This document shows positions 4,873 through 64,000 of a stretch of DNA of 64,000 nt, in pieces. The stretch is from Mesodorylaimus sp. YZB2_4. Taxonomy: Eukaryota > Nematoda > Enoplea > Dorylaimida > Dorylaimidae. The notes under the pieces are model-generated. The model saw only the letters and a list, made by a program, of their open reading frames with translations, ran no database searches and was not told the origin of the DNA. Made by a program: the position numbers and the translations under genes. The stretch spans positions 1-64,000 of the forward strand of contig JASANH010000556.1 of assembly GCA_030248295.1 (NCBI GenBank), written 5' to 3'. How positions within the stretch are numbered: the first letter of the stretch is position 1; every line of letters begins with the position of its first letter.

Positions 4873-6516
4873 CTAAAATTTCATACAACATATCTTGTCC
4901 CTGAATTTAAGAAATGTACTAAAATTCACATCCTCAGTCAATGCATTCCAATGTTGTAGTGTCGAGTATAAAAAAGACTGTTTGTACGATTCGAAGAATG
5001 GATGTTTGATTTCGCAGCAATGATGTCCATTTTTTCGAGAACTCACGCGCCTACCCGAATCGACAGTCCGATCAAGTATCAAATTTGGACGATCACTAAA
5101 TTCATGGAAGTATTTATACAATCGACTTAATTTCAAATGCATCCTACGATCAGACAGGCGAGGCCTTTCATGCCGTCCTAGTGCTTCATCGTAGTCCAAC
5201 CTCCAGTCGTTTTCAATAATGCGCATAGCGTAGATTTGAGTCCTCTCTAGTTCATCAATATCTTTTCGCAGGATGGGATCATAGGTACAACACCCATAAT
5301 CCAGTTTTGAACGAATACAAGCTGTATATACCGCCTTGAGAGTCTTCTGGTCGATATGGCGTCCAAATTTCCGTCTTAGAGTTCCAATCATAGCCCTGGC
5401 ATTACGACTAATCAAATCAATGTGCTCTGAGAATTTCATATCTGATGAGAACAAGATTCCCAAATATTTATATGTTTCAGAAACTTCGAGAATTCGACCA
5501 GAAATGCGCAGTGATGGAGATTGAATTTTTTGATAAGAATACAGATAGCCCATCACTTTAGTTTTTTCAGCGTTAATTTCCATACCACTGTCGTAGACCC
5601 AACAATCAATAAAATCCAGCATTGGTTAGACAATTTGTTCAATCGGTGACGTTTTCTTTGTCGGTACCAGAAGTAAAAGATCATCTGCAAAGGCCTGGAG
5701 TAGGACATCTGAAAATCGATCGGAGAATGATTTTAGAAGGGGATCAATGCTGGCGATGAACAAGGTTGGACCCAACACTGACCCTTGAGGAACACCAGAG
5801 GCCACTGGTCTAATACTTGAGGACCAGTCATTGATCACCACTCTTTGCGATCGATTCGACAAATACGAAAATAGCCAATTGACTAGTGTTGGAGAGATTT
5901 GATGATATTCTCTCAGTGTTGACAATAATTTATAATGAGGAATACGATCAAATGCTTTTTTCAAATCAATGAACGTACCAGTAACAATGCCAAAATCCTT
6001 TGAATTCAGCCAGTTGTGGATCGACTGAGAGGCACTGATTAGGGCATTATCTGTGCCACGACATTTTACAAATCCATGTTGGTGATCAGATAATTTCAAT
6101 GCATGACGCAGTAGTTTGTCAATGTGTTTCTCCAGAATCTTTGAGAAAATGGGAAGAAGCGAAATCGGCCGGTATGAGTTTGACGAATTTCTATCTCCAG
6201 CTTTTGGGATAGGAATTACCTTAGCCGATTTCCACTGCGTTAGAAATGTTTGGGACCCAATCGATCGATTAAATAGCATGGTAACCGCTGGTACGATTGA
6301 TGGTGCAATTTGCTGAATAATAGGCACAGTGAGCCCGTCATCACCAGGAGAACTTCGTTTTCTCAAGCGTTTGATTTCTTGTAGAACGAATGCTGGAGAT
6401 ACTGAATAGTCTGCAGCGTTTCCTGGATCAGGTGCCAATGATGAGAACACTCCATAGTGAGTGCCATTGAAATTTTCCATAAACTGGTCATTGAGGAGTT
6501 CGGCTTTATCCCCTGA
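4873..6516 (-). pseudogene. Non-LTR retrotransposon reverse transcriptase, 5'-truncated, one nonsense codon
   Basis: On the minus strand an open frame runs from about 6516 to 5626 and resumes in the same frame from 5622 to 4873. They are separated only by an in-frame TAA. The N-terminal part has RT motifs in order: SYRPISLLP, IDLKKAFDRIPH, GVPQGSVLGP and the FADD active site. The second part has the C-terminal block typical of jockey/CR1-type elements (INAEKTKVMGY, YKYLGI, DRR region). No endonuclease domain or poly(A)/tandem tail was found, which fits 5' truncation at integration. Apart from the one stop it is well preserved, so it is fairly young, or the stop may be a sequencing error. Confidence 0.9.
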
Positions 6517-6654
6517 CCCGTAATGTCAATAGCAATAGTTTGGGAGTTTAAACAAACAGCTGCTACTGTAGATTCCTTTTCTCTTCATAAAAATTGGCCG
6601 CTTTGAAGCGAAGGAATGTACTCGAGCGTTACATTATACGCAAAATATTATAAA

Positions 6655-8281: not shown

Positions 8282-11200
8282 ATGGAATTAAGACAAAGGA
8301 ACTACAGTGGTAGCGATACGTCTGGTATGTATCACGTGAATGAAACTTTCGCCGATGACGAATTCTCTGACGACCCCGATTTATTCCATCGATCCATGAA
8401 CAGTGGCATCCACATCCATGCTATACCATCTCCACATATGCCCCCATCTTACCATTCTGTCGATGAGGGCCAGCTTGGTCACGAAATATCTTCTGGCGGT
8501 GGCAATCCTGGCAATCCAGCTCAGAGGCGATTGAGCGTCGGCGATTCGGCGCCTCACATCGACCATTACCGCAATGTGCTTACCACCAGGCGAAATAGCG
8601 AAAAATTCGGCAGTCGACCTAGTTTGGCCGAACTGCATTTACAAATTGATGAGTTGCCCACCTCAGTTCCATCTTCAGTGCAGGGGATCACTGAAACCTC
8701 ACTGGTGAGTCCGCATATGACCTAGAATACTGTATGGTCACGGCCGCATCGGATAGGGGTTTGCCGGATCGGATCGGATGTGAAATAGGTACTTGTAATT
8801 TTTTTCAACAATCATTAACGCATCAACTTTTTCGAAAGGTTGCTCCCCATGATAAGCACAGTATTTATCATCACAGTGCCATGGCACAAGCAGCTGCCCT
8901 CTCTCTCTGCTCTGCCACACTGCTCATCCTGGATCTACTCAATAAGCTGATAATGTAAAGAAGATCCATGCTGCTCACCATTGACTGTAAACAACACTTC
9001 AATTTTTTTAAACACAGATATTTGCGTTTTTTTTCCACTCCTCTCTAATATATTTTTCTCGTCTGACTTTAAATACTGTACATATTTGCAGAATCTTGAA
9101 AGGCAACCTTTGCCAGCCATTGCGTCGAGCTAAAACCAAAAATTGTAATTTGCTCCTAGGTGCAAAAAAGCTCTCTGAAAAATATCAGAGGTGTCTGGCC
9201 AACTGATCAGCTGCTCAGCGCCTAAAGTCCGGGAAGTTTTAAAATTCTTCTGGATTTTTGGGTTAATTTTTAGAGAAAAAACCGAAACCTGAGTGGTGGG
9301 CGAAGCCTAAAACCCTAAAAGTGAGTTTGGAAAGAACCCTGCGTGGTTATCTCAACGTTCGAGCTCCTTATTATCGAGAATTCAAAAACTCTCTGGACTT
9401 TAGGCCACTGCTAACCACTTAACCTGACCTCTAATATTTTGCAGAAAGTTTTCTTTTGCATCTAAGAGCAAATTACAATTTTTGGTTTTGTCAAGTTCGA
9501 CTTAATAGTTGGCGATGTTCCCTTGTGAGTCATCCATGGTTTCGTTTATCTCAAATAATAATAATGAGATGACTTTTAACCCTAATTATGAGCAGAAAAA
9601 AGAAGCATCAATGCAGATTGATCTTATCTCATTCATTACACTAGAGTGGTTGGAGAAAACTGCGCGGTAGCTCGTTGTTTGCCAGCGGTTATTGCACAAA
9701 CCAAAGAATGTCGGATTGGATAGTTCAGATCGGATAATCCGATCCGAATTTTTGGATCGTGATTTGGATGGATCCGAATATCCGATCCGGTCGTGACTGT
9801 AGAGGACCAGGAACCTGGACTTCGAAGAATAATACGTACATTTTAGGGTGCAGCCCCAACATCGCCTCCAACTCCAATTATCACGCAAGAAATGCAAGTC
9901 AAAGCCCCAATAAAGTTTGGTTGGATCAAAGGCGTACTTGTCAGATGTATTTTGAGTATCCTCGGCGCAGTGCTCTATTTGCGTTTAAGTTGGATAGCTG
10001 GCCAGGCCGGAGTGGCTCTAGCCACTTTGATTGTCATCCTCAGCTACACAGTGACCACACTGACCGCCATATCCATGTGCGCGATTACAACTAATGGCGA
10101 AATTAAAGGAGGTATGACATTTTAGCATGCAAAGGGAGATTTCAGTGACAGGGTTCCCAAGCAACTCCACCAATCCAATATGACTAGGCCTGCGAAAATC
10201 TAAAAATTTGGTATCTCAATTCAATACGACGATTATTTGGTGGGATCTTATGTGGATATGGGCGCAATTGGGTTAGCTTCGCTAAGTATCATTTCTATCT
10301 CAGGATATATAGAGAAATGTCCCAAAAAGCGCGCTAAGCCATATCCAGTGGTTGTCCCAAATTTTGAGCTAGAATAACCGACAGCACGTCAGCTGACGCA
10401 GAATCTTCATTTATTGTAAATTTATTTTTCATAGAGAAATTCAAATTTGGCGAAATCAACTTTAGGGACTTACGGATAGCTTACAAATACCTGTATGCTC
10501 CCAGCGAATTTACTGCATGCATCGAGGCTAATTAGTGGTGATGATAACCTTTTATGGAGCTGTCCAGAGGCTGCTGGGGTTTCAGTACAGAGTCTGGAAT
10601 TTTGCATTGGCCCAGCTACATATTTTTTGCTTAAATAAAGTTTCTGACGAATCGTGCGCGCATATTTCAGGCGGTGCATACTACATGATATCACGATCAT
10701 TGGGGCCAGAATTCGGTGGCTCGATGGGAGTCATGTTTTCAATCGCCAATGCACTCGCCGCGGCATTGCATACAGTCGGATTCGCTGAAACTGTGAAAGA
10801 CCTCATTAAGGTAAATGCTTTTCTCCTGCTTTCAGAACTGGTAGTCTGCATTAGCTTTGTTTGCAGGCTCATGGCGCCATGATAGTGGACGGTGGTAAAG
10901 GCGATATTCGTGTCGTGGGCGTGGTCACATTATTCTTGCTAGTGATGGTCGTAGCCGTGGGGATTGATTTTGAAACAAAAGCCCAGCTCGGTCTGATCGT
11001 CGTTCTGGCAGTTTCATATGCGAATTTTGTTGTTGGCACTTTTCTGCCCGTGCCTGATTATAAAAGGATTAAAGGCGTAACAGGATATTCGTGGGAAACA
11101 TTCACAAGCAATATACCACCCGCTTGGACTGGAGAGAATTTCTATTCGGTGTTCGGTGTTTATTTCCCATCAGCTACAGTAAGATGATTTTTTACCTCCT

Positions 11201-14200
11201 GATCGCGTTTAGAAAAAATCTGGGAAAGGGTCAGGGCCCCGCATTCGGATTTGTCATGCTTTGAATCAGAGAGTAAAAGAAATTATGCATAGTGACTCTA
11301 AATAGTTTTGCCCTGTGCACAGGCAAGACCTTTCGAAGGGAAGGGTTTCATAGCATAACAGTTTACTCCTAACTTTCTAGGGTATTATGGCTGGAGCGAA
11401 CATATCGGGAGATTTGAAGGAACCAGAAAAAGCTATTCCGAAAGGCACTTTGCTGGCACTCATGGTCACATTCCTGGTGTATATTGGTGCCATATGGATT
11501 CCAGCCGCCACTTGCATGAGGGAAGCATCTGGCGAATTTCAAGTGTTTATGGACCCTAATACAACAGTGGCCGAGTTCGAGCCTACGGATTACACCAGCG
11601 TGGCCTGTACAGCGAACACGACATGTCAGGAAGGCTTGCTGCACCGTTTTCAGGTAGGTCCCAAGTCCTTTACTGAATCTGAAGGTCACCCATCTACAAT
11701 TTTAGGTGATGGAATTGGAAAGTGCATTTGGGCCCCTGGTCACTGCAGGAATTTTTGCAGCTTCACTCAGCTCAGCTCTCGTGTGTTTGATTTCTGGCCC
11801 CAAATTGCTGCAGGTGAAAAATTTTTAAATATACAGTATACTGTATATCTTACATCCGGTTTACTACAGAAGCGTTTATCTTCAGGCCGTGGGGAAAGAC
11901 AAGCTATTCCCAATGTTGGAGCAATTGACCAAAGGTTATGGTCGAAATGATGAACCCAGGCGCGCCTACATTGTGACATTCTTGCTGGCATTGGGCATGG
12001 TCTGCGTCGGTAAGAGCTCTATTGTAAAGCAAAGCTGTGTCCAGACATTGTTGTTTGCAGGTGACCTGAACGCTATTGCCCCATTTATATCCAACTTTTA
12101 TTTGGCCACGTATGCCCTGATCAACTACGCTTGCTTCGACTGTTCATTGGCCAAGTCACCAGGATGGCGCCCTGCATTCCGTTACTACAATAAGTGGCTG
12201 TCCCTCCTTGGTGCTTTGCTCTGCGTTGCGGGCATGTTCTTGATGAGCTGGTGGGCAGCACTGTTGACCTTTCTGTTCGCCATCTGCCTATACGTCTACA
12301 TTTTACGCTCAAAACCTGGTCAGTAGCTGCGCATATTTCTGTATATGCTTGATATATTTACTGTAATTGCTTCCAGATGTCAACTGGGGCTCATCATCGC
12401 AAGCCCGAACATACAATGTTGCCTTACAAGGAATGCTCAAGCTGTTGGTGACCGGAGATCACGTCAAAAATTATCGACCACAAATCCTCGCCTTGACTGG
12501 AAATCCAGTCAGTCGAAGCGCTTTTGTAGATTTCGTCAAAAATATCACTCGACAGAAACATTTATTGATTTTGGGCCATGTTGTTAAGGTAAAGAAAAGT
12601 TGATTATCGGCTCGACATCAATCTGTAAGACGGTTCTCCAGGATCAACCCAGTGCCACGATGTACGATATTTTGAAAAAGTACACGTCGAATATTTATGA
12701 ATGGCTCGAAAATCGATCAGTCAAAGCCTTCTACATTCCTGTTGCAGCCAATAGCATGCGGCAAGGACTGCAAGCGTTACTGCAGGCCGCGGGATTGGGA
12801 AAACTGCGCCCGACTGTAGTCATGCTGGGATACAAGAACAACTGGAGGCAATGCTCACCTGCTGAGATCGACGATTATTTTCAACTGATTCAGTAAGTGC
12901 ACTATTGTTTCCTCCCCCTGACAAGTGAATTCTTCAGAAACCATATCCTGTAGTTTAGAGTAGTTTCAACCGTTTTTCTTGAAGCGCCTAGCTCATATAC
13001 AGTAGAGCCAGACTTCGAAATGCAACATGACCAAACTCAGCTGATTGTTAGACAGGGTATTTGAGAGAGATCAGGAGAACTTCGCGAGCGGAGGAATTCA
13101 TTTTATGGACGCGAGTTAAGGGCACAGCTATTGTAGCTGACAATACGCCGAGACAGGTTTCTGTATATCAGTGTATGCTTCACACTTATATGGTCAAGCA
13201 CCACAGGCGCGCGCACTCGAGGAGTAAAAAGCGGAAACCCTGATCACGCACTGTCTTGCATGAAAATTCTGAATTTTTGTAGGAATAAATTCATTGTTTT
13301 GCCTGTCTTCAAAGCACTGATTACAATAACGAATTTAGACAGTAGAGGGCTGGGGTGGTGAACAGGGCATGTTAGTATCATTTTGGCTGCATCTGAACAC
13401 CCCCATTTTTAGCGAATCTTTCGATTACCACATGGCTGTCGGTGTGTTGAGAGTTCGTGGTGGTCTGGACTACATGGACGCCATGAGAGCAGCGAATGTG
13501 TATGATGCTCAAAAGTTGTACAATGTGTCGCCAGAAACCGAAGTCCTGCGCATGCAAGAAACGCCAGCACCAAGCTGCCCCAGTGCCGTATCGAGCCCTG
13601 CGATCGCCAGCTCTGCTCATGAGGGAATGCAGCAACGAAAAAGGAAGAAAAAGTCATCAGTTTACGCCCTAGGGGCAGAAACTATTAAAGCACTTGTGGC
13701 TACTGTGGAAAATTTGGATATATCCTTACTGAACACGTCGGAATCACAACGTCAGGTTTTGGCTTCAGTAAATCAGTTCCAACACAAAGTGAAAAAGGGA
13801 GTTGTCGATGTGTGGTGGTTGGCTGACGATGGAGGTAAGAAAAAGTGCGATAGCATTCAAATATTTATAAAATGTCTGTTTTAGGGCTGACTGTCCTTTT
13901 GCCTCACATTCTTACCCATCATCGAATGTCATATTTACACGGCAGCAAACTTCGAATATTCACAGGCATAAATGAAAAAGACTCGATACAAAGTGAACAA
14001 AGAAAGTGAGTCATGAAATTTAAAACAATCTACAGTACACATCGCACAAATTTAATTTACATTGTATACCTGATTTTTTATTTTCAGCATCGCGGACTTG
14101 CTTCAAAAATTCCGTATCGATTTTCTGGATGTTGTAGTTTTGAATGATTTGCACTTGCCTCCCAAAGTAGCAACCCTCAACGAATTCAATGAATTGATCG

Positions 14201-24437: not shown

Positions 24438-25805
24438 CTAGTAAAACAAAGCCCTTAATTTTGGAGCATCGCCATCGCGTCTGTTCATATGCAAATATGA
24501 TTTCATCAATTCGGGAATACAATCCAGATTTTCTATCACATTATCAGCTTGAATCTTAAAATGCTGTCGGATTTTTGTCCTGCACAGCTTCTTCAAATTC
24601 AAAAAGCTGCTTGATTGGCGCCACTCGAACAATGAACGAAGGACAATAGGGTTCGGTTTGATCTTTTTTATATGCAACCCACAGACACTAGCCGTCGTCA
24701 TTTTTAGCTTGTCTATGGGCCAAAGTAGATCGTATTCCTTGCTTAAATCAGCTCCGGATTCTAATAATAGTTCAACAATAAGCAAGGACGTCAAAGAAGG
24801 TTTAGAACCAGAGCAATATCGTAAGGCAGACCCAAGCGGGGAATCGGAACTATTGTATTGGACGATACTGTTTACCTGGCATCCCGCCCTCAGGCATATT
24901 TCTATCATATCAACATTTTGGCACATTATTGCTTCGTGTAAAAGAGAACGACCAGAATAGTCGAATGAATCTGGACAAGCTCCATTCGCCAACAACAGCT
25001 TTATAATGCCCGTGTCTAGCTTTGACCACTGCCGACCAGTGCAACCATACTTCAATGGTGTTTGGCCATCTTTGTTTCGAGAGTTGATTAATTCTGACGG
25101 TAATTTGCGCAACAAGGCACAAACCAGGTTGTAATGTTCAGACTGACACAAATTAGCATTATTTCTTAGACTATAATGCAGTGGATTCCGTCCTTCGTTA
25201 TCGATTAATTTGCCGATGGGTATCGATCGATTAGACTGATTTAATATGGATAGAAATTTTAAGATAATGTTGCCACATTCCACTGCGCAAGATAATAAAA
25301 ATGGTGTTATTCCGTTTTTGTTTGCATCTAAAAATATTGATTGAAATATTTCATCATTTCTTCCTTCGTCTTTTAAGTGACTGAGTAAGAGATCAGCTAA
25401 ATCCAGGCGACGGTCATTGTTATTGTAAAACTCCTGAACACTCGTCCGAGGGCTATCGAAGGAGAAGCGCCAGCATAAAACCGCGTGGTGCATGGGTGTG
25501 TACTGATTGTGGTCGGAATCGCGGATATTGCACTTATGAACGAGCAGGCATTTCATAACTGAAATATCGCAGCCTAGTAATATGGCCAATGACAAAATCG
25601 GTGTTTGGAATTTCCCAAAATTACGGACATTCGATTTTCGAATGGTGTCTTCTAACATTGAGACATTGCCAGATCGCAGAGAAAATATTATTCGAGCTTG
25701 CGCAAACGATAGATTTGATGCAAAAAGGGAATTGTAGATGGCGTAATGATCAAGACGGAGATCAAGATCGTTCATATTTTTAAATTCTAGTATTTTAGGC
25801 TTCAA
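24438..25805 (-). CDS. Ankyrin-repeat and SOCS-box (ASB-like) protein, single exon
   Basis: An uninterrupted minus-strand frame of 455 codons from the ATG at 25805. Several ankyrin repeats are visible: YTPMHHAVLCW (about residue 105), NGITPFLLSCAVECG, EGRNPLHYSLRNNAN, DGQTPLKYGCTG with IIKLLLANGACPD, SGRSLLHEAIMCQN, and LIVELLLESGADL. Near the C-terminus, LKKLCRTKIRQHF followed by CIPELMKSYLHM has the spacing of a SOCS box (elongin BC-binding LxxLCRxxIR, then a Cullin-box-like Pro-Leu-YL end). Such proteins are substrate receptors of Cullin-5 E3 ligases. Absence of introns in an intron-rich region suggests origin by retroposition. The flanking tRNA genes are unrelated. Confidence 0.85.
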   Translation of the reverse strand: MKPKILEFKNMNDLDLRLDHYAIYNSLFASNLSFAQARIIFSLRSGNVSMLEDTIRKSNVRNFGKFQTPILSLAILLGCDISVMKCLLVHKCNIRDSDHNQYTPMHHAVLCWRFSFDSPRTSVQEFYNNNDRRLDLADLLLSHLKDEGRNDEIFQSIFLDANKNGITPFLLSCAVECGNIILKFLSILNQSNRSIPIGKLIDNEGRNPLHYSLRNNANLCQSEHYNLVCALLRKLPSELINSRNKDGQTPLKYGCTGRQWSKLDTGIIKLLLANGACPDSFDYSGRSLLHEAIMCQNVDMIEICLRAGCQVNSIVQYNSSDSPLGSALRYCSGSKPSLTSLLIVELLLESGADLSKEYDLLWPIDKLKMTTASVCGLHIKKIKPNPIVLRSLFEWRQSSSFLNLKKLCRTKIRQHFKIQADNVIENLDCIPELMKSYLHMNRRDGDAPKLRALFY

Positions 25806-26441
25806 GCTTACGATTAGCCTAGCAGAGATTGCTAGTCAATAAAGCAACGTAGGGCCGACGGCTAGTAGGCTAGCTGCTAGCTGCTAAATGTCGGGCACCT
25901 AGTAGAAGGCTGTTACGCTCTCTACTGGCGAGTGGACAGCGCGAGATCTGGCCAGCTGTCCTCCCACGCACGCAGTCCGCAGCCGCTTCTTCTAGCTGTG
26001 AGCAAATACTGGTGGCAGCATATTGATTGTGCATAGTCTCCAGCAACACAGCAGTCACTTTTTTCCGAGCCATGTGCAGTAGATTGGTATACAACGGGTA
26101 TACTGTAAATCAACCAAATTTTCGCTATCGCTGCTGTATGAACAGTGGATGAGGGCAAAAAGGACAAAGAAAGGTAGCTGAAGGAAGTTTGTGTTGTTGC
26201 GGTGTTGATGAACAATACAAAACGTTTGGCGGGGTAAAATGATTTGGAAACGTTGAAAATTAGCCTTCTAAAGACTGTGACACTGTTACCAACTGTTACC
26301 ACATTACAATGCTCATATTACAGTGGCAATGAACTGTGCATTTGTCATTTTGAATAAAAAGCACCTAGAAAAAAAGATGGAAAATGATTTGAAGCCTCCT
26401 AATTGAAAAAATGGCATCTTACGATTAGAGAAAAACAATTT
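25806..26441. other. Upstream region of the ASB-like gene
   Basis: No gene is seen. It contains small imperfect repeats of gctagta/gctagctgc near 25855-25885. The promoter of the ASB-like gene is expected here. Confidence 0.35.
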
Positions 26442-48950: not shown

Positions 48951-51900
48951 TTAATGGTACCAACAGTTCCAACGAAAGAACAAGATCAAGACCATGAAGA
49001 CCAGCATCAAATAAATGAGTAAGCAAATTTTTTCCAAACGTCTCAGAATAATACCAGCTCCCGTGTGGTGACTTTGACTGACAGGATCGCCCATGACTGC
49101 TCTCAACGATCGCAAAACTGCCAGCGATTCGGTCATTATTGATTTGATATCCTTGTACATGTCCACGAGATGGCCAGATTGATTAACCATGGTCGAGTGA
49201 CAATTTTCCACCACACCCAGCTTCGAGTTAGCTTTTTGTTCTTTCGGACTATTTGCGTCGTCGTAAATGTCTACCAGCTAAAAGAAGATGAAAAGAATTC
49301 ATGAGTTCCATAGCCTCCTGGAACGTCGCCCAGCGGGTCATGGGGAATTATTGATCTCTCTTGCCTAGGAAACGTCAACCCGTCAGTTTGATGTTTCTCT
49401 TCCATCTCCTAGGCTCGGCTACACTCAAAGTTCCCCCAGAGGCTCAGCTGAAAGTTGCGGCTCAGGCTTGCATGGCTTGGATGCGATTTGCATAGTTAAA
49501 ATTGATCACTACAGATTGGTTGATTCAGACCTGATTGGTCGACCGTAATGTTACGAGGGATCGCAGGAGCGTAAAAAGTATATTGAAGCGCTTATTAGGC
49601 TTTGCGGGTTGCCTAGCCGTCATACAGTAAAAGGCCCTGAAAAATACTCCCCCCCCCCCCCCCCGGAAAGCTGTTAAAATTGAAGTTGACACCGTCACAC
49701 CACTGTCACAGGACATGTGTGAACCTACGAACAACGCATTTGACAAGCTTTCAAGCATGCTGATCACGAGTGATACAGTGGGTGGACACATATATATGCG
49801 GAAAATCGCTTCAACCAGCCTGGACTTTCTACTGCCACAATGCGTCAGTGGGTCCCATCCAATGGATCGGTGATAGCAATAGGCACTTGACTGCACGTGT
49901 TCTCATGTAATCTCTCGTGATCTGTACACTCTATATTTGACTTGTAAACCAGTGTTGCTGATCGCAGCGGAGCTGTAGACATTTGTCTTGCAATCGATAC
50001 TCTGCACAGAGCCAGCAGCTGGGAACATCAACCATCAGTCAGGGTGATGTTTCAGCCATGGAACAGGTTGATAGACTTGGTTGGTTGTCCCTGATGTTTG
50101 GCTTTGCGCAAAAGGCTCATCAGTCAGTCTCTCCATTTACAGACCAAACATATTACAGCACGATGCTGTCGAATTGCCTCTGTACAACCTTTTGCATTCG
50201 AAGGGTCAGGGAGAGTCGGGTAGGAGCACAGGAAGGCAGACTGAACCCTCTAAACGGGCCACTGGTCGCTGCCTGACATACCTCTAACGTGTCCACTGAG
50301 TCTTGCTTCTCACGGCCACTGATTGCGTTACCCTTGGCCGATGTGGGCTTATATTCAATGTTTGGTCTCTTCGCAGGGGATGGTGCTTTTCGGCTGCCGC
50401 ATCGACCCCTCCAGCATGGCCACTCTTCAACCATCAGCCAACGCAGATAGACTGGCACACCATCGCGAATGGCCTGTTTTTCCAAGACGACAATCCATGA
50501 GGAGGTAATGGTCGCCATGCCGATGATGGCCAGTAAGCTGAAGTAGTATATGCCTAAAAAAGGAGGAAATGCTAAGCGCCATTTAGTCTGTCCGGAAATG
50601 TGTTTAACCACGCCTTCTGATTGGCTAATTAGCAGGAAGCCACACCTCCATTAGTATTTCTCACCCACTGATCATTGACAATTCCCAAATTGACAATCGG
50701 TATTCTACTTTGCGCCACCTGTTATGCAATCTTACCTATTAATGGCACACTACTGAACGATCCCTTCTTCCCAGGTACAGCCTCGAACGCGAATTTGGGT
50801 AGCTCGTTCACGACAGATAATAGCAATACGGACATGGAGAGCAATGTCATCATGCCCAGTCTCGATTTCGATAATCGACCACCGACTGTAGCTGATGGTA
50901 AATGGAAACCGACTACTGATACCAAGCAGATGAGAGCGCTGGGTATGACAAGATTGAATATGTAATAGAAAGACTGACGTTCAATATGTAAATGCATGGC
51001 CACCACATTTGTCCGGTTCAATGAGTTGTCATACAGCAATGAGTAATTCGTCAGCATCCATTCCTGACTGTCGTAGAAATCGTGCACTGTCAGATTGTAG
51101 CCGCTTTGACTGAGATGCAGACCCACGCCATCGCCGTTTGGTGGCCATGTGTCAAACTAAAACAGTCACTTTGTCCATGGGCACTTAAAATTTTTGAGTT
51201 TTATTTTTTTATCTTATATCCCTCCTTCAAGTAATGGCAAGGTTTTTAAACCTAACCTTTGAGAAATAGCATTCAACGTCCAATTGATCATTTCAGGTAT
51301 AGCAGGTGACTTACACTTTTTTTTTTAAAAATTCAGTAAATTCTTATACGTATGTAAAACAAACCTTGTTTTGTTCTTGGGCTCTGCAGAGTATGAAATC
51401 GTATTTATCTTTTATCCACAGTACATTGTACATTCTAACCATATGTATATATTTTATACATATTTATTTAACCTGCAGCAAAAGTTCTCTGAAATCTACA
51501 GTACCCTATATACAGTCATGTCCATTTATAGTCACACTTGATAATGTCACAGTCCGGTTATTATCACAGGTTTTCGAAGCCTCGAATTTTTCTCCTATAC
51601 ATTACGTGTGTCTTGAGTTCGCTAATTATTACGCTGACTTTGGCTCAGTCCGCTTATCGTCACAAAAATTTCTTGGCCAGGCGGAATAAGTATTAGAAAT
51701 GAGTCACATTTACACTCTTGGCAGTCGGAAACGAATGCAAAATCGCCAAAAACTAGTATTTCTCGCAAGAAAACGCTTGCATCAAGGCGCATGGCACCTT
51801 ATGCTTCAGCTTTGATCTGACTGATTATCATAATTTTGATTTCTTTAGTTACAAGAACTTCTGAAAAAGCGTTTCGTCTTTTAAAACGCCAGGAATATGT

Positions 51901-54900
51901 GAAAATGATACGGAATGGCGATAAAACGCATAAAAGTAAAGCTTTGGCCATTTTAGAGTGTATTTCGGTTTTAGTCACAGTCCGGATATAGTCACATTTT
52001 CTTCCCGCCGGGAGCTGGTGATAATAAGCGGACTCGACTGTATTTGAAATACCTGTGGTACGCGGTCCCAAACCACACCGTTTTATCCATTTATACCAAA
52101 AATTACAGTATCTCATATGTGCACCAACAAATTGGGAACAAAAGGCAAACCTGACAGAAACCTCGCTGTATTCCCAATTTATCTTACGTGTTTATATCTT
52201 ACGCCAACTATGTATTTCTACAGTATATATCGTGAACCTACAGTATTATTTACAATGTACCTATCTCATGCCTGCCGAATGTCACCCTCGTGCTTGGTAG
52301 ACCATGGCGAGTGGGAGAGAGTAACCGATCTTCCCTGGGAGAAGTCAACCTCTCGGGTTGATGTTTCAGCCGTAGGTACGTATAGTCGCACGACGTGCCT
52401 ATTCCAGTTAGAACTTCAGTCGGCCACAGTCCCTTCTACATACGCCTGCTAGGCTTGTTTACAAGAATATTTGACATCGACAGCAGGTACGGTATCCATG
52501 TGTTGCCGCACACACCTCATTATACACTTAAAGTACATATATACAGCTGCATCATATCTTATTTACTGTATCTTGCATAAACTGAAAATTTGATATTTTT
52601 GCACCGTAGTCTAATGTATCATCTAATGCCGTAGCGTATATTTATCTTGACTCTTATACCTGCTGTGTATCCTGTACTTTCAGTACATCTTACACCCATC
52701 TTGGTCCTTAATCCCATTCTTCATCCCGTACCTTGATGCTTGCTATGCCGCATATGACATTGCATGCAAGCTTCAAGTCAGAACTTCTACAGTTAATCTC
52801 TGACTTTTCGGTTTTATCTCTAACATTACTGATAAAATACTGATGAAAGGTTGGAGTGAAGAGCAGAAACTACAAACATGAAAGCAATTTGCAATGCATA
52901 AGACCTGTTAAATGGAAGTCAAAAATAAGCACAGGTTAGTAAGGGTTCTACAGTAAAAGGGAATGATGGCTGGTTTTGTCGCTTTTCATGATCAAAATGC
53001 ATTGCCCACAAAACACGAATGGATAAGACACCATGTCATGGAGAACTTACCAAAATAACGCATTCTTGGACATCGAAAGGAAAATGTTTGACGTCTATCG
53101 GGCATATGGTCTCGGTCGTGAATGGCACAAAACTGTGAACGTGGCCCGTGTGATTCACCTTGATGTTCAGAATGCTTTCGATTATTGCTTTCTTATCAGT
53201 GCTGAAAAAGAAAGGCTGGGCTGCAAGAAGCAATGGACACAAGCTACCTTGCTTCGGACATGGTGCTGCTGGGAAGCAAAACACAGAATCGAAATTCTTG
53301 TATTGTTTGCATGCAAGACTCTTGTAGAAGCTTGTGATGCGTGTTTTCCCTGTGGCAAGGTTGTGTATTTGGTTTCCACGGAGCAGTGTATTGACTTGGC
53401 TGGCCGACGCACTCTCTCCAGGCGAGGCAGAAACGCGTTGGGTTGATGTTTTGGGCTCCTACGACAAGCTTTCCTATTCCGATAGCTGTATTCAACCTCA
53501 ACAACCTTCCGGTTTCCAACTCGGGGCTCTCCCCGTTGAATCCAAATGAGTCGAGCACCCGACTTTGAGTCAACATGGCTTCGCAAAGGGATGTTGAGGC
53601 CAACCGAAATTCAATTTTATTTAACTTCAAAGGGGGCTCAAAACTAGTTAAAACGAACCCTTTATCGATTTTTAGCTTAAAGGTGGTGAAAAGCAGTGAT
53701 GAAAGATTTCGCTTGTTTGAAGTGATCTCGGTGTTTTCAATCAGAGGTGCGGAAAGTAACCCAGGGGATATTAAAATCACCAGATCATGTTGACATCTGG
53801 ATCCTTCCAAGCAAATGATGTTTTGATTTCAAAAATCAGTTCTGCATAGAATGAGCGGAGCCCTTCCTCCTTTCTTCCCACTTCATCAAAAGCCTAGAGT
53901 GGTCATGATGTGGAATTGGACGCACTAACGTTACATTATCCCACGAAACAGCTGCCATACCGACCAGGTAAACGTAGGGTATACTGGCCTGAGACCATCG
54001 AACTGCAAGTGCGTGTGCTGTAATTGTCTAAAGACCCCCAGGGACTGCATTAGAAACTTATCAGATTAAAACCAGTTATCAGAGGATGGCATTTCATAGA
54101 ACTTAAGCTGCTACTCGATTTGCAGCCATTCCAGAAGGGGCGAGGCCCAGGTTCAGACTGCGTAATTAACAGCAGTAAGCAAGTCGTCTGTATACGTGTC
54201 ATATGAGTATTTTCAAGACACAAGCCTCACCCAGACGTAATAATCAGGCGCGCGCAGAAACTCGAGACAGGATTTTATTTTCAGACACCCAGTCGTAAGA
54301 AGCTAGGCTTTTGGCGCCTAATTGTCTCTCTCTAGTCTCTCTTTCTACACACCACACTGCCTGAATATTGTCTGCTATTTCCACCCAGCTGCTCGCCAAA
54401 TTTTTTTTTTTTTTTGAATCTTTGTGGGTCGAAGCCTGTTTTTGCCTATAGCCGGCCAGAGCCCCGTTGCATAAAAGATACGACCAGTCAACTCAATAAG
54501 TAAACTGGCCTAAGCAGCAGTAACTGGTCTAGGAGTTTTCTTATTCCATAAAATCTTCTTATCGCAGAACACGTGGGTATATAGTTGTCTTATCGAGCTG
54601 ACTTGTCTTATCGTATATGCAACGGGGCCCAGCAGTCAAACTTTATAAGCAAGGCTGTGCGGGGACCGGCACACACAGGAGCTTCCCTTTGCGTGCCTCC
54701 ACTATGAGCACCTCCACGCGACGGCATCCTGGACAGGACACCAACTTCATTGGACGATGGCGGGTGGCCTGTGAACCCTGTCCATGTTCGACAGCCGAGA
54801 CTGTCTACTCGTTTGGCTTCCGTCTCTCTACTCGGAGCACCTTGGCGGTACCGGGTGAGTCACCCACGGCCTGGCGTGCAAGGTCAGCGAGGGTTTATGG

Positions 54901-58182: not shown

Positions 58183-59172
58183 AATGCGGCTATGTCGAAG
58201 ACAAACGTGCTCCAAGGCCTAAATGGACTATATATTAATTCCGTGAACAAAAATGGCTCGCCATCTCGTAATGAGCTTACATCAATCGAGAAGCAGTCGC
58301 TACTTGATGTATTGTTATTGCTGTATTGCTCTGAGTAGCACGGACTTTCGCTTTATCACTTTCTAAAATGACCTTTTCTCGTATCAAATACGTAAAGTCG
58401 CCTCCAAACTTAATACATAGTCAATACGAAAAGTCAACTTTAGTTTGCATTCGTCACTTAAATATGCAAAGAGTCCATTATTGGTCTCCACCGACTCAGG
58501 AGTCTTTTAAAAGGACCTCGACGGCGGAAGGCAAACATGAATAAGTAGTCGAAAATCGATTTATCTGCTTGGCCAGACTCCAAATGCCTTTTGGTCCTTC
58601 ATGCCTGCCATCAAAGCAAAAACTGGCAACCTGCTTTTTGTTGTAATTATTGAGGCCGGTTCGAGCAGCAAACTTTTATGGAAACGGAAATGTAATCGAA
58701 GCGTAACATTTCTCCGGAAACGCAATTTTCTCGTTCTCAAACACGGCAGCACTGGCAGCTGGTAATGGCCTCCGTTTTCCCATGAAGGGAGCGTGGGAGA
58801 ACAAGCAGAAAAATATGACTATTTTAAATGGATTTGGAAAGAATAATGCAAGCTCGAACTGAAATACAGTTCGGCATAATTGGACGTGTACACATAACGG
58901 GTGTGTCATATTTCGGCTACCTTGTGCAGTCGGAAGACCATGATAAAGTAAAAATTCACAATTTCTACACCAGTTGGTCCCCATTATGACCTCAGCAGGC
59001 CCCTAGGGATTCCCATGCCTCGCTTTTGTGGGCATGCTCATCGTCAGTATAAGTCCTGCCATACAACAAGCATATGAAACGAGCAGTTGGCTAGTTAGTT
59101 TTCTTTGGGAAAACGAAGTCTCGAAATGGCGGTAATTTTTTATTTCTGATCGGTTTAGCCAAATATACCGCT

Positions 59173-59235
59173 TGACCAGCATCACCTCATTTTGAGGCTT
59201 TCATAAGAAAAGCCTCAAAATGAGGAGATGCTGGT
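59173..59235. repeat. Compact hairpin with about 26-bp arms
   Basis: ccagcatcacctcattttga(ggctt) pairs with (aagcc)tcaaaatgaggagatgctgg with a single mismatch, leaving a 9-10 nt loop (tcataagaa). It could be a microRNA-like or transposon-derived hairpin; the sequence alone does not decide. Confidence 0.8.
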
Positions 59236-60035
59236 TTCAAAACTGGACCTTGGTCCTCCAGAGCTTCCGTGGTGTCTGACACTTCGGAATCGTGTAATTC
59301 CTGGGCCTACATGCGCGTTATTTGGGTTAGTGGGAGGCATCTCGTATGCATAATATCCTACGTACCATACTTAAAATCCTTGATAACGATTAATTTTAAA
59401 GTAGGGTTCCTTCCCGTCAAGCATTCATGACACATGCTGCAGGCTTACCCACACGTCGTGAGGAAAATGGCAGCAGAGCAGAGTGCCGGAGTGTCTTTTC
59501 TGCTTTAGAGTTCCTCCATTTGACTTAACTCATGGCAATCCTAAGAAGCTTAGGCTTTTTTTACCACACTAAACCTGGTTCAACAAAATGGAAAGACCAC
59601 ATGAGAGTATTTACAGTATGCGCACCATATATTGCTAAAACGGTCAGGAACAATTTTTAAGCTATCGATAGAAAGAAAGATGTTTTTTTTTAAATTCATC
59701 GAATTAAAGTGGTTTGTTGCCCACCATTTCCTTGTGTGGTCACAAAATTTGGCCAGAATCGCACTGTTTCAATTGATATACCCGCTGTAGTGTAGATTCA
59801 GATTCAGACTTTCAGACATCTAAAGGATGTCTCAAATCTTCAAATGTCTTTCAGAAATCTTCAATATCCAAAAAAATCTTTTTTATTTTAAAATTTCCGT
59901 CCAAATACTGTACTTCCAAGATGGCAAACAAGGCATGCTCAAGAATATCATACAAAAAAAAATAACTTGAAAATACAAATACAAGCGTGCCACTGTCACC
60001 GCTTCCCAAAAGCCAGATACCCTTCAAAGGCGCAT

Positions 60036-63000
60036 TTAAAAAATATGCCTTAACCCATCCAAACACATTTTCTCTCGAACTGAAGCTAACAAAAAGCCAA
60101 CTTTATTTCCGGTCAAGTCTAGTAAAAGTCCGTCACGATCTGACCAAATTCTTATGCTATAATTCGATAAACTATTGCAGCCGAAATAATCGTGTTCTCG
60201 CTTTATTTTTGGCAATACAAATATTATTTCGAACATGCTTAGTACTGACATGCCAAGGTAAAGACCGGAATCGGCCGCAATATCAGGGAAAAGATCTGTG
60301 ATCTAGAAAAATATGTTGTTATCCGCGACGTGTTCTAAACGCACACAGGGCATTGAGTTGAAGGTAGTTCGTCCAACTTATAATACTAGTTTTTTGCCAG
60401 CGGCTGGTGTCAATCTGGCCAGATCCATGACTTATCGCTCGGTATCGTCCTGAGACGCTGGTGCTGGCACAGGATTCCCTCGGAAAGGTGCCCTACAGCC
60501 CCAGGTTGGACCCCTGGGGCTGTACAAAATATCCTATATCCTCCGTAGCAAGCAAAGCTTCACGGCATATTCTTTGCATAAAGACGGGAAAATTGACTTT
60601 ACTTACGCTGTATGCCAATGACTCCGAATATTCTAAGTAAGTTAGGTCTTCAAAATAAACGTCAATTTGGACTAACTGGTTGATAAATAAATGTGCCATA
60701 AGCCTAATCATAAGGCATTTTTGCAGGGCATAATTATCGTAATGTATGTACCTGCCACGACGAGACACAGAGGCATTATTTGTCATTGACTGCATATGAG
60801 CGTTCTAGAACAGAGGTACAGCCAGTTCAACAAACCCAGTCTCTGGTTATCCAGTAAGACTTACTTGAAACTTGGGCCACTTTCTGGTGCTCACTGATGT
60901 TTCAAACAATTCTTGCCTGAACAGGAGACAGAATAAGAAAAGAAATGCCAGACTCGTACGCACTTACTCGCAAGCCGGAGGACACGAGCATGCGGACCCG
61001 ACTGATGAATTGGAATGGCCATAGAAATCGTTGACACAATCACCTGGCACAGAGATGTGCTGTGTGCTCTTCTTGGTACTGGTACAAAAAACGAAGGCTT
61101 ACGGCGAAGGGCATTGCAGTATCCGACTTTTGTGTTGGCTGGCAACGGGACTAGTGGATCGCCGCACTGACATCGTTCAATCACACTCTGCTGATTGCAA
61201 CTTCTCAGACAGGCCTATAAAATTCAAAATGTAACATTTTTTCTTGATATTGTGAAATGGAAGAGAATGTTTTGAGCTATTCGAGAAAGTCGAATCGATA
61301 GAACACGTGAAGAGGCTTGCTGAAGCATGAGTGCACGTCTGAATTTTTGCTTAAGCTTTCAGCGCGGATGTAAAGTCTCTCAGGGTCGTATGCTTAATTC
61401 TGAATTACATGTGTCATAAATTGGAAGTTTTTTGGATTTTGGAGTTTCCATATTTTGGATGCACTTTGCCTTTACTGGCCAATGCCTCAGGGGGCTTTTA
61501 CGAAACTTGAAGAAATGGTGTATGGGCTAAGGGAACGCATTGTAAGGCAGGTTGCTAGGTTTATACTTGGATAGGAAATGGCATTGATGGACCATCGAAA
61601 AAATAACAAACCCCCTGAAATATGCCACGGATGGAGTTTAAAGATTCAGTATCTTATATGAAAAAATATCGACGATATCCGCCCTATTTTGCTGTGACAT
61701 TATCCAAGGGAAGTCCAAAAACCATGATTTGGTGGAAACAGAATGAAAAAACAGTTGTGAAATCCTGGTTTTCAATCCGTTTCTACAACATATTTCTTGA
61801 CTCCGATGGTGAGCCACTTCTTCCATGTAAACTGTAATTTTGACAGAATCTTCAGGTCGTCTTTGACGACTGATCATTGCAATTGGTAGAGACTAGCACA
61901 GGATCGATAATGCTGCCGATTTTGGGAGCTTTACGGAAGAAGTAGACATCGCGCTGCTTATGGTGGTAGAGGGCAAAGAGGTCGGTGATGCCGAAGTTGA
62001 TGTCGAGGCTGGCGTGGTAGTCGGTGCAGTTGTGCTCGAGGACGAGGTCGATGCTGTTGATGTAGTGGACGAAGTTCTTGATGTCGTCGTGCTAGTTGTC
62101 ACAGGGGCAGCATTGTAATCTGCAACAAGAGGTCATCGAAGTCATCTGCTAAAGTGCTTCTGTGAAGCCAAAGATCCTTACATTCACAAATTACTGGAAA
62201 AGTATCCGTAGTGCCATAATTATCAAAGTCTACCCTCATATGTGGTGTGCCATGGACGATAGCAGCGAGATTAGGTATATCTAGCCATCCGTTCCGTTTA
62301 CTGTTGTGATCGGGCAGTGTCGTGTTGCATACGCTGCATAAAGTAGAGACAGTCACAGGGCCGCCTACGCCTTTTATGGTCTCAGTATCTAGCCAATACC
62401 AGTCAACTGAAGTTGGGCTACTGTAGCTTTTCATACCACAAAATACACCTGGAGTTCCCACAATCAGTCCAGTATACAACAAATGCGTTATGAGTCCATC
62501 GTTGTCGACCCTTGCAAGTCGGCTGTTCTGGTATCCAGCTGGTATCGATTGATCGCAACATTTCCATCCGCACACCCAAGTCATCGAGCTTAAAGTTTTC
62601 GCATAGCGAGAACTACCGTATATAGTTGACGGGCCCATTATGCCGCATGAGTAAGGCGGTGCCCGTTTTTCTCTTTTCTTTTCTTCATATAAGGTAATGC
62701 GCTCTTTGTCTGTGCGGCTATCTGCTGGCTCTGCTGCCGACGGATTTTGCGATAATGCTTTCATTAAAGAAGATAATTCTGGAATTGTAGCCAGGGCTGA
62801 TTTTTTATGCGGATTCAGGTTGCATAGTGTGACTGCCAGGAAAGGTAGGCGTTCTGACTTAAGCTGCAAAAAAACAATGTTCTAAGCAAAGCTTGGGAAG
62901 TGGCTCCAAATCCGCAGCTTCCCATTCCAGGACCCGTTTCGATGGGTGGAATAATTCTGGGTCCACTCTATTGAAAAGACTGGTGGAGCGTTTGCACCAC

Positions 63001-63721
63001 GGCGAGAGCCCAACGCAGTCTAGAGCGTTTCGACATATTAGTCTGTGACTGAAGCATACCGAACTATATGTTCAGTAAGTGTCCAGGAAGGAGCAGCAGG
63101 AGCATGCAGTCCCAGTGTGTTGTATCCTGATGTAATGGGCGTGGATATTCATCTGCGGCTCAATGCACTGGTTCAGGAAGCTGGTCAGCCCCTCCTAACA
63201 GTATTCGAGGCATCATCTCACCCTCTAAGCATCATTCAGCTGGGAACACACCTAAGCTCACCCATTCTCGTTTGCCATACCCATACTAGATATTCTGCTG
63301 TCTCCCCACTGGAGGCAACTCAAACTGATTGCAATTTTCATCCTACAAGTATCTGTGTGGACTTACGCACCACGCCATACCAGGGCAGCCAACTAAATCT
63401 TTCAACCCAGTTCATGGCTGAAGCATCACCCTGACGGGTGACGCTCCCAGTTCTAGCTCCGTGAGGAGTATCGATAGCTAGTCGAGCCTCTACATACTGT
63501 ATTTGACTTTTAGAAAATCTACCGTAAATCATACTAACCGAGATTGCGACCGTTCGATCATACTGAAGATACTTGACCACGCACACGGCAGTCAATCCGA
63601 CTAACAGTACCGAGGAGACTACTGTAATAACTGACCAACATATATTACTCAGAATATTTGGCCCAGTTATTGCAAGGTTCAATGAAGTAATAGTAGTGGC
63701 TTGGGGCTCCATCCCAGCCAT
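60036..63721 (-). CDS. DEG/ENaC sodium channel with unusual extracellular domain, 9 exons
   Basis: Amiloride-sensitive-type cation channel subunit. Minus exons: 63721-63539, 62863-62182, 62119-61935, 61214-61103, 61043-60968, 60916-60865, 60804-60752, 60703-60607, 60302-60036; all phases join, 568 aa. TM1 SVITVVSSVLLVGLTAVCVV, then YDRTVAIS and LPFLAVTLCNLNPHKKS, the post-TM1 signature. C-terminal half: ACLRSCNQQSVIERCQCGDP, SACSCPPACEQELFETSVS, RKWPKF, VQIDVYFEDLTYLEYSES, then TM2 with the GxS filter (SGLYLGMSVLSMFEIIF). Between them lies a Cys/Trp-rich stretch (WVCGWKCCDQS, DWYWLDTETIKG, TFPVICE) and a Thr/Ser-rich exon instead of the usual finger/thumb. The pre-TM1 HG motif reads TG. Further N-terminal exons are possible. 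The exon 3 donor (GTAAAG) is the least certain junction. Confidence 0.85.
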
Positions 63722-64000
63722 TTGCTGTTGTATAGCTTGCAGAGCAGTGATCTGAGCAGTGATAAGAGTATAGGCATAAGAGTACAGGCATGAAGCCGGG
63801 GCATCTTATAGGCCACCATGGACCCCATTTGCGGCCGTACCTATTTGGCATCATGTTCAGCATGAGTTGTCATGGAATGCTTTTAGGCACCCATTGTAGT
63901 CTTCGTGTTTGTTGAAAACAGGCTCAAAGGGGCGCAGTGAGACAGTAGTCGATAATATGGTAGAACCATGTGCCTCTATAAAACCTTACTCGCGATGTTC

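Follow-up and report, generated by a model that had tools for sequence, protein, structure and literature searches.

Can a single polypeptide combine a DEG/ENaC ion channel with a lectin-like head carried on a mucin-like stalk? The question is raised by a gene near the end of a 64,000-nucleotide stretch of the nematode Mesodorylaimus sp. YZB2_4 (contig JASANH010000556.1, positions 1 to 64,000; hereafter the window), which forms the first 64 kb of a 118-kb contig in a genome of 145 Mb. A sequence-only reading had described this minus-strand gene, at 63721-60036, as a channel whose extracellular middle is replaced by a putative sugar-binding module on a mucin-like linker. We think it probable that the gene is one of a DEG/ENaC subfamily that has multiplied in this nematode genome and whose finger holds three added elements, together a built-in lectin-mucin tether: a polybasic furin-type site, a C-type-lectin-like domain (CTLD) of divergent sequence, and a stalk that is mucin-like and highly variable in length. 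The combination of lectin-like module, mucin-like stalk and DEG/ENaC channel is supported more strongly for the family than for the window gene itself. The architecture is well supported; the mechanism we infer. Gene order, splice frames (window gene and neighbour), CTLD-like profile similarity, insertion position, furin motif and purifying selection were computed, and the mechanism covers cleavage, glycosylation, ligand and gating.

The window gene

The coordinates and strand first proposed proved correct, and the stretch was modelled as a single gene of 587 codons including the stop. The phases are consistent, as had been claimed, and all introns are GT-AG; the number of exons is eight rather than nine. 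The spliced protein matched Pfam PF00858 (ASC) with E=9.3e-42 and 144 bits, in two stretches, and open reading frames (ORFs) of single exons matched ASC positions 61-125, 298-329, 401-429 and 428-454. The DEG/ENaC motifs named earlier for the two ends of the protein are all present: FLAVTLCNLNP after the first transmembrane segment (TM1), the Cys-rich region, IDVYFEDLTY, and the GMS selectivity filter at the second transmembrane segment (TM2). Between the two ASC ends lie a cysteine-rich domain (residues 131-290), with the reported WVCGWKCC, DWYWLDTE and FPVICE, and an exon rich in T, S, A and P, whose ~62 residues agree with the linker of about 60 described before. The features are as follows.

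63523..63721, minus strand: exon 1, short cytoplasmic N-terminus and TM1 (TM1 ~63655-63566); splice model, alone a weak ASC match (E 0.2)
62182..62853, minus strand: exon 2, palm start FLAVTLCNLNP, start of finger alpha-1, furin-type site and CTLD-like domain; ASC E=8.4e-5 (ORF residues 8-71) and paralogous exons
62663..62674, minus strand: putative furin-type site REKR, directly before the CTLD-like domain; R-X-[KR]-R motif common to 12 of 14 genes
62183..62662, minus strand: divergent C-type-lectin-like domain (APPYSC...FPVICE); family alignment, PDB profile search and hhalign
61935..62119, minus strand: exon 3, short mucin-like T/S/A/P-rich linker of ~62 residues; T+S 0.56 over a 79-codon open frame
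61215..61934, minus strand: intron 3 (720 bases), site of four paralog exons (C.YNG..C, YGNCYTFN, GFN.PSGY, YS.EV) not found here in probe searches
61103..61214, minus strand: exon 4, thumb ACLRSCNQQSVIERCQCGDP..; ORF matches ASC 298-329, E=4.1e-4
60968..61043, minus strand: exon 5, thumb CVNDFY..CSCPPACE; splice model and block search
60865..60916, minus strand: exon 6, ..VSTRKWPKFQ; splice model and block search
60607..60804, minus strand: exon 7, ..IDVYFEDLTY, last palm strand and approach to TM2; ORF matches ASC 401-429, E 0.011
60036..60302, minus strand: exon 8, TM2, GMS filter (60254-60246) and C-terminal tail; ORF matches ASC 428-454, E 0.023

An automatic joiner gave another splice model, counting against ours, in which a cryptic donor within exon 2 leads to a 433-amino-acid protein without the second half of the CTLD. 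We preferred the eight-exon model, since paralogs have this CTLD exon too and in them it likewise extends to ..C[EQ]C. The junction of exons 1 and 2 has at least two possible donor/acceptor pairs. Pfam found ASC plus one chance match (E 1.8) on the spliced protein, and no EGF match. A search for spliced leader 1 (SL1) RNA, made without a positive control, gave no match.

A gene family in the same genome

A six-frame search, counted exon by exon, gave at least 114 ASC matches in the genome, so DEG/ENaC is a large family there. Searched with the middle domain, the genome gave 30 matching places at E<=10. A cut-off of E<=0.001 leaves 25, of which one is the window gene, two belong to the neighbouring gene and 22 lie elsewhere; two of these 22 contain internal stops. 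We read up to ~10 kb around 15 other loci, and in 13 of them an ASC start, the CTLD exon and further ASC exons follow one another on one strand. The further exons include block D (C.YNG..C, 49-86 bits) and block F (GFN.PSGY, 59-116 bits) in all 13; block E (YGNCYTFN) and block G (YS.EV) were weaker in a few loci. The thumb block H (CLRSC exon) fell within the stretch read in 11 of the 15 loci, and the TM2 block was found in 11 of 13, the CTLD-bearing gene having GxS in 10. Paralogs also carry a post-TM1 motif of the FPA[VI]TxCN type. TM1 scored clearly in nine of 13 loci; the stretches for L027, L035 and L038 start at or near the CTLD exon, and in L028 TM1 was not found in the 1.8 kb upstream. 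The stretch read for L037 ends at the fourth block.

Some loci depart from this pattern and weigh against our reading. The CTLD-bearing gene of L036 has NAS in place of GxS. L034 showed no thumb or TM2, though 2.5 kb follows its last block, and L039 and L040 had no channel remainder in the stretches read. A second subfamily gene in L036 (4719-9133; G000:C14) has a stop in its TM1 block and no CTLD in the usual exon, and is likely decayed.

In the neighbouring gene upstream (contig ~75.6 to 65.6 kb), 12 exons joined in frame at GT-AG boundaries, the stalk exon being incomplete in the model. It has two CTLD-like domains in tandem.

Across four paralog pairs the ratio of nonsynonymous to synonymous substitution rates (dN/dS) was 0.18-0.29 for the CTLD exon; for three channel exons it was 0.03-0.28. 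Some comparisons span no more than 19-20 codons, one is missing, and dS exceeds 1 in several. Purifying selection acts on these pairs, on average including the CTLD exon. For the window gene versus its neighbour, dS is saturated.

The module lies in the finger, behind a furin-type site

Aligned with gamma-ENaC, the neighbouring gene follows it as far as residue 113; the match is then taken up again at gamma 238, beta 227 and about residue 160 of ASIC1. Its remaining ectodomain matched ENaC delta, alpha, beta and gamma with E-values of 2e-33 to 3e-27. By these alignments the insertion point of the module is in the finger, with alpha-1 before it and the remaining ectodomain after it, at the position of the protease-gated GRIP domain of vertebrate ENaC. 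At the family level, then, finger and thumb are not replaced as had been proposed, since 13 of 15 paralogous loci have additional ectodomain exons after the stalk. Excerpts of PMC6197857 and PMC8791634 place the vertebrate GRIP domain between finger alpha-1 and alpha-2, and the PMC8791634 excerpt describes GRIP domains as unique to ENaC, so an independent origin of the nematode insert is likely.

Ahead of the CTLD, 12 of 14 genes have the motif R-X-[KR]-R, and 13 have R-x-x-R; for the stricter motif, 2000 shuffles gave a mean of 0.43 and a maximum of 3 of 14. Such a furin-type motif occurred somewhere in two of eight ordinary ASC frames. Eleven stalk open frames, drawn from 10 genes and not including those of L027, L036 and the first one of L032, held no second polybasic site, so that of the two polybasic cleavage sites of a GRIP domain only the upstream one is seen. 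The nematode genes thus resemble vertebrate ENaC in having a DEG/ENaC chain, an insertion at the same place in the finger and a furin-type polybasic site within the insertion. They differ in lacking the second site and in what is inserted, a CTLD-like domain with a mucin-like stalk rather than the small beta-strand domain of ENaC.

The middle domain as a divergent C-type-lectin-like domain

We aligned 15 sequences of the middle domain and found 12 invariant columns. A profile of this alignment searched against PDB gave 14 matches at E<=10, of which 13 were C-type-lectin-like, with CLEC2D at 1.7e-4 and the other twelve at 0.0076-0.096; the reversed alignment, used as a control, gave none. The best matches were CLEC2D (LLT1), CLEC2A, CLEC1B, Dectin-1 and snake-venom CTLDs. 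When the family was compared by hhalign with 14 CTLD sequences from its own genome, the score was 27.4 (E 6e-4) over 45 columns, while the highest of 30 column shuffles reached 15.3, and a global alignment spanned the domain. CTLDs such as CLEC2D share with the family the pattern W..C, LARIDN, WIGL, YYW.D and ICE; the family differs in having extra cysteines, in scoring below Pfam Lectin_C and in sitting inside an ion channel. Cysteines C36 and C159 are invariant in 15 of 15 domains, and from the general CTLD pattern we take them to be the outer disulfide cysteines, putatively paired, one after helix 1 and one in the final ICE. The extra conserved cysteines are C35, beside C36, and C109-x-x-C112.

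Several results pull the other way. None of the 15 domains reached the Pfam Lectin_C cut-off, and a Lectin_C search of the genome, in which 150 of 233 candidates were scored, placed no family member among its 90 reported matches. The local hhalign alignment covers 45 columns at a probability of 20-36%, and the PDB similarity lies mainly over the N-terminal half of the domain. The window exon alone, searched by phmmer against PDB, found no CTLD. Hmmsearch with the family profile over 854 ORFs, including ordinary CTLD exons of the same genome, matched only the window gene, and AlphaFold on the window CTLD alone, as a single sequence, gave a predicted local distance difference test (pLDDT) score of 36. 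We read the middle domain as a divergent CTLD.

The proposal of sugar binding is not supported. EPN or QPD together with WND are the motifs of calcium-dependent sugar-binding CTLDs; across the 15 domains EPN and QPD were absent and WND occurred once. The domain is probably not a classical calcium-dependent sugar binder. The genome also has a dense array of ordinary C-type lectin domains (G000:C21, ~899-952 kb), with dozens of Lectin_C matches in ~50 kb.

A mucin-like stalk of variable length

Threonine- and serine-rich open frames, picked at T+S above 0.3, were found in 13 of 14 genes, with T+S of 0.32-0.66 and 0-13 cysteines; the maximum of 13 belongs to L021, where the frame includes the second CTLD. 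In nine genes these frames ran to 1847, 1672, 1656, 1626, 1492, 1413, 1350, 1140 and 1100 codons, with T+S of 0.33-0.54 and few cysteines. These lengths are of open frames rather than spliced exons, and some also contain a second CTLD, as in L021, or the block that comes next after the stalk, as in L026. Long, T/S-rich and Cys-poor, the stretches are mucin-like by composition, and O-glycosylation is predicted. L038 has no T/S-rich open frame, a point against a stalk common to all genes, and apart from it the window stalk is the shortest seen.

In two other DEG/ENaC genes, L004 and L006, no CTLD was seen, and an insert rich in proline or threonine lies ahead of the C.FN..C block; the stalk may have arisen from inserts of this kind. 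Three further ASC genes, each in a single frame with a split match (L047-L049), were inspected by eye for other inserts and showed no CTLD.

What the window copy has lost

The window protein aligns with beta-ENaC at residues 49-130, through exon 1 and the start of exon 2, and at 382-540 only. Missing between them (~beta-ENaC 131-381) are the part of the finger beyond alpha-1, the beta-ball and the majority of the palm strands, and this speaks against the window copy as a full example of the architecture. The Cys-rich region ACLRSC.. and CVNDFY..CSCPPACE, which we take to be the thumb, aligns from residue 382, and on that assignment the thumb is present. Finger and thumb had both been called absent; the claim stands for the finger beyond alpha-1 and fails for the thumb.

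We searched for the missing exons with probes D-G, taken from four of the 13 paralogous loci. They scored 17-19 bits in window positions 59001-64000 and at most 21 bits across the whole window, which is noise, and none of the four exons, which in paralogs hold the remaining finger, beta-ball and palm, rose above it in intron 3 or elsewhere in the 64 kb. The paralogous loci gave the much higher D and F scores listed above. Two probes also scored at noise in the expected place, E in L027 (19.6 bits) and G in L023 (19.2 bits), so a strongly diverged exon could be missed in the window copy.

By sequence the family is DEG/ENaC, and the window copy, without the full set of finger, beta-ball, palm and thumb while D and F are present in 13 of 15 paralogous loci, is an incomplete member. 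The palm core is needed for the DEG/ENaC trimer. Because the remainder of the finger, the beta-ball and most of the palm are lost and the stalk is down to ~62 residues, the window copy probably forms no normal pore. It may be non-functional; we read it as a relic of recent date or else as a shortened chain serving some other role.

Comparison with known proteins

DEG/ENaC chains with extra domains are already known: the excerpt of PMC10424705 describes EGAS-1 to -4 of C. elegans as channels with EGF plus ASC domains. They share with the present genes a nematode DEG/ENaC chain with an extra extracellular domain, and differ in that the addition there is EGF modules and here a CTLD-like and mucin-like one. 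An excerpt on the B. xylophilus secretome gives degenerin and C-type lectin as separate proteins. We recognised no description of a DEG/ENaC, CTLD and mucin architecture among the titles and opening abstracts listed from open-access PMC, and database annotation or closed papers may differ.

Two better-known systems offer partial parallels. The MEC-4/MEC-10 touch complex is a DEG/ENaC channel thought to be pulled by extracellular matrix tethers; here too extracellular tethers are proposed, with the difference that the putative tether would lie within the channel polypeptide. Polycystin-1, a large membrane protein that undergoes cleavage, has a CTLD on its extracellular side and is linked to channel function. 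It differs from the present genes in channel family, domain order and cleavage site.

Alternative explanations

We put at about even the chance that the window copy is a relic in decay. In this view it started out as an ordinary CTLD-mucin subfamily gene, lost its finger remainder, beta-ball and palm exons to an internal deletion, and owes its odd architecture to that damage. The unlocated exons, the short stalk and the need for a palm core in the trimer all favor this, but all eight remaining exons are open, in phase and GT-AG at only ~25-40% identity to relatives, so the loss was recent or is tolerated. We regard it as very improbable that the model fuses two genes, the first with TM1, CTLD and mucin-like part, the second a separate DEG/ENaC fragment. 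Intron 3, at 720 bases, leaves room for it; exons 3 and 4, however, meet in phase 0, the neighbouring gene joins GT-AG in phase, and in 13 of 15 other loci the strand of the CTLD exon goes on to ASC exons, which include the thumb in 11. We rejected the two-gene reading on the paralog exon order.

It is also improbable, though less so, that the middle domain is an unrelated cysteine-rich nematode domain with a chance resemblance to CTLDs. Such a domain would fit the missing Lectin_C match, the failure of the hmmsearch profile on ordinary CTLD exons, the extra cysteines C35/C36 and C109-x-x-C112 and the bias of similarity to the N-terminal half, but not the 13 CTLDs among 14 PDB matches with an empty reversed control, nor the hhalign score above 30 of 30 shuffles and the domain-wide global alignment. 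Rather unlikely, yet weightier, is the idea that these are chemosensory or immune receptor channels, in which the CTLD recognises a ligand (microbe, food, mate or host surface), the family has diversified for recognition, and the stalk serves only to give distance or protection. The large number of divergent paralogs, the neighbour in tandem and the second CTLD in one gene agree with it, and stalks ranging from none to an 1847-codon open frame would suit a spacer; the purifying selection on the CTLD exon, an average rather than a site-wise measure, does not. Ligand sensing is a close rival of self-tethered gating.

Other features of the window and genome

Elsewhere in the window we noted retroelement pieces at 1059-2057 and 5626-6525, both on the minus strand (RNase H with an integrase zinc domain, and reverse transcriptase); pieces of an amino acid permease-type transporter gene at 10855-12326 on the plus strand (AA_permease); an ankyrin-repeat protein with a SOCS box, in a single long open frame, at 24438-25835 on the minus strand; and pieces of a Cys-loop ligand-gated channel gene at 50722-53458 on the minus strand (Neur_chan_LBD, Neur_chan_memb). 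In the genome, the cuticle-collagen N-terminal domain, a family that marks nematodes, gave 133 matches, and these, like the cox1-like stretch described next, fit a nematode source. Inside a 488-kb contig (L050, G000:C73:253316-254668) lies a cox1-like stretch with 10 TGA codons that is open under the invertebrate mitochondrial code, either a recent nuclear copy or a misassembly.

A self-tethered channel

For the subfamily with its built-in lectin-mucin tether, we suggest the following mechanism. The proprotein would be cut once, before the CTLD; because the single cut lies there, the lectin-like head would become a free end, still attached to the channel through an O-glycosylated stalk. The head could bind cuticle, matrix or a foreign surface, and a pull or docking on the stalk would move the finger and open the pore, making the stalk a built-in tether for force-from-filament (or ligand) gating. 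We propose tentatively, while leaning somewhat against it, that a nematode lineage evolved self-tethered DEG/ENaC channels, with a lectin-like head freed by one furin cut that reaches matrix or foreign surfaces, a mucin stalk of maybe well over 1000 residues covalently joined to the finger, a pore gated by pull or binding, and a stalk length tuned gene by gene. In an excerpt of PMC7958617, DEG/ENaC mechanosensing is thought to involve matrix tethers, and glycan or extracellular matrix tethers and glycan-lectin contacts are proposed for ENaC.

The question of how a DEG/ENaC channel is opened by an extracellular tether persists because the two are, as a rule, separate and difficult to identify. 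If the proposal is true, the putative tether would lie in the same polypeptide, at the ENaC gating site, with at least a dozen natural variants of stalk length, and force-from-filament gating would become testable. The GRIP position may then be a hot spot at which unrelated lineages have grafted regulatory modules.

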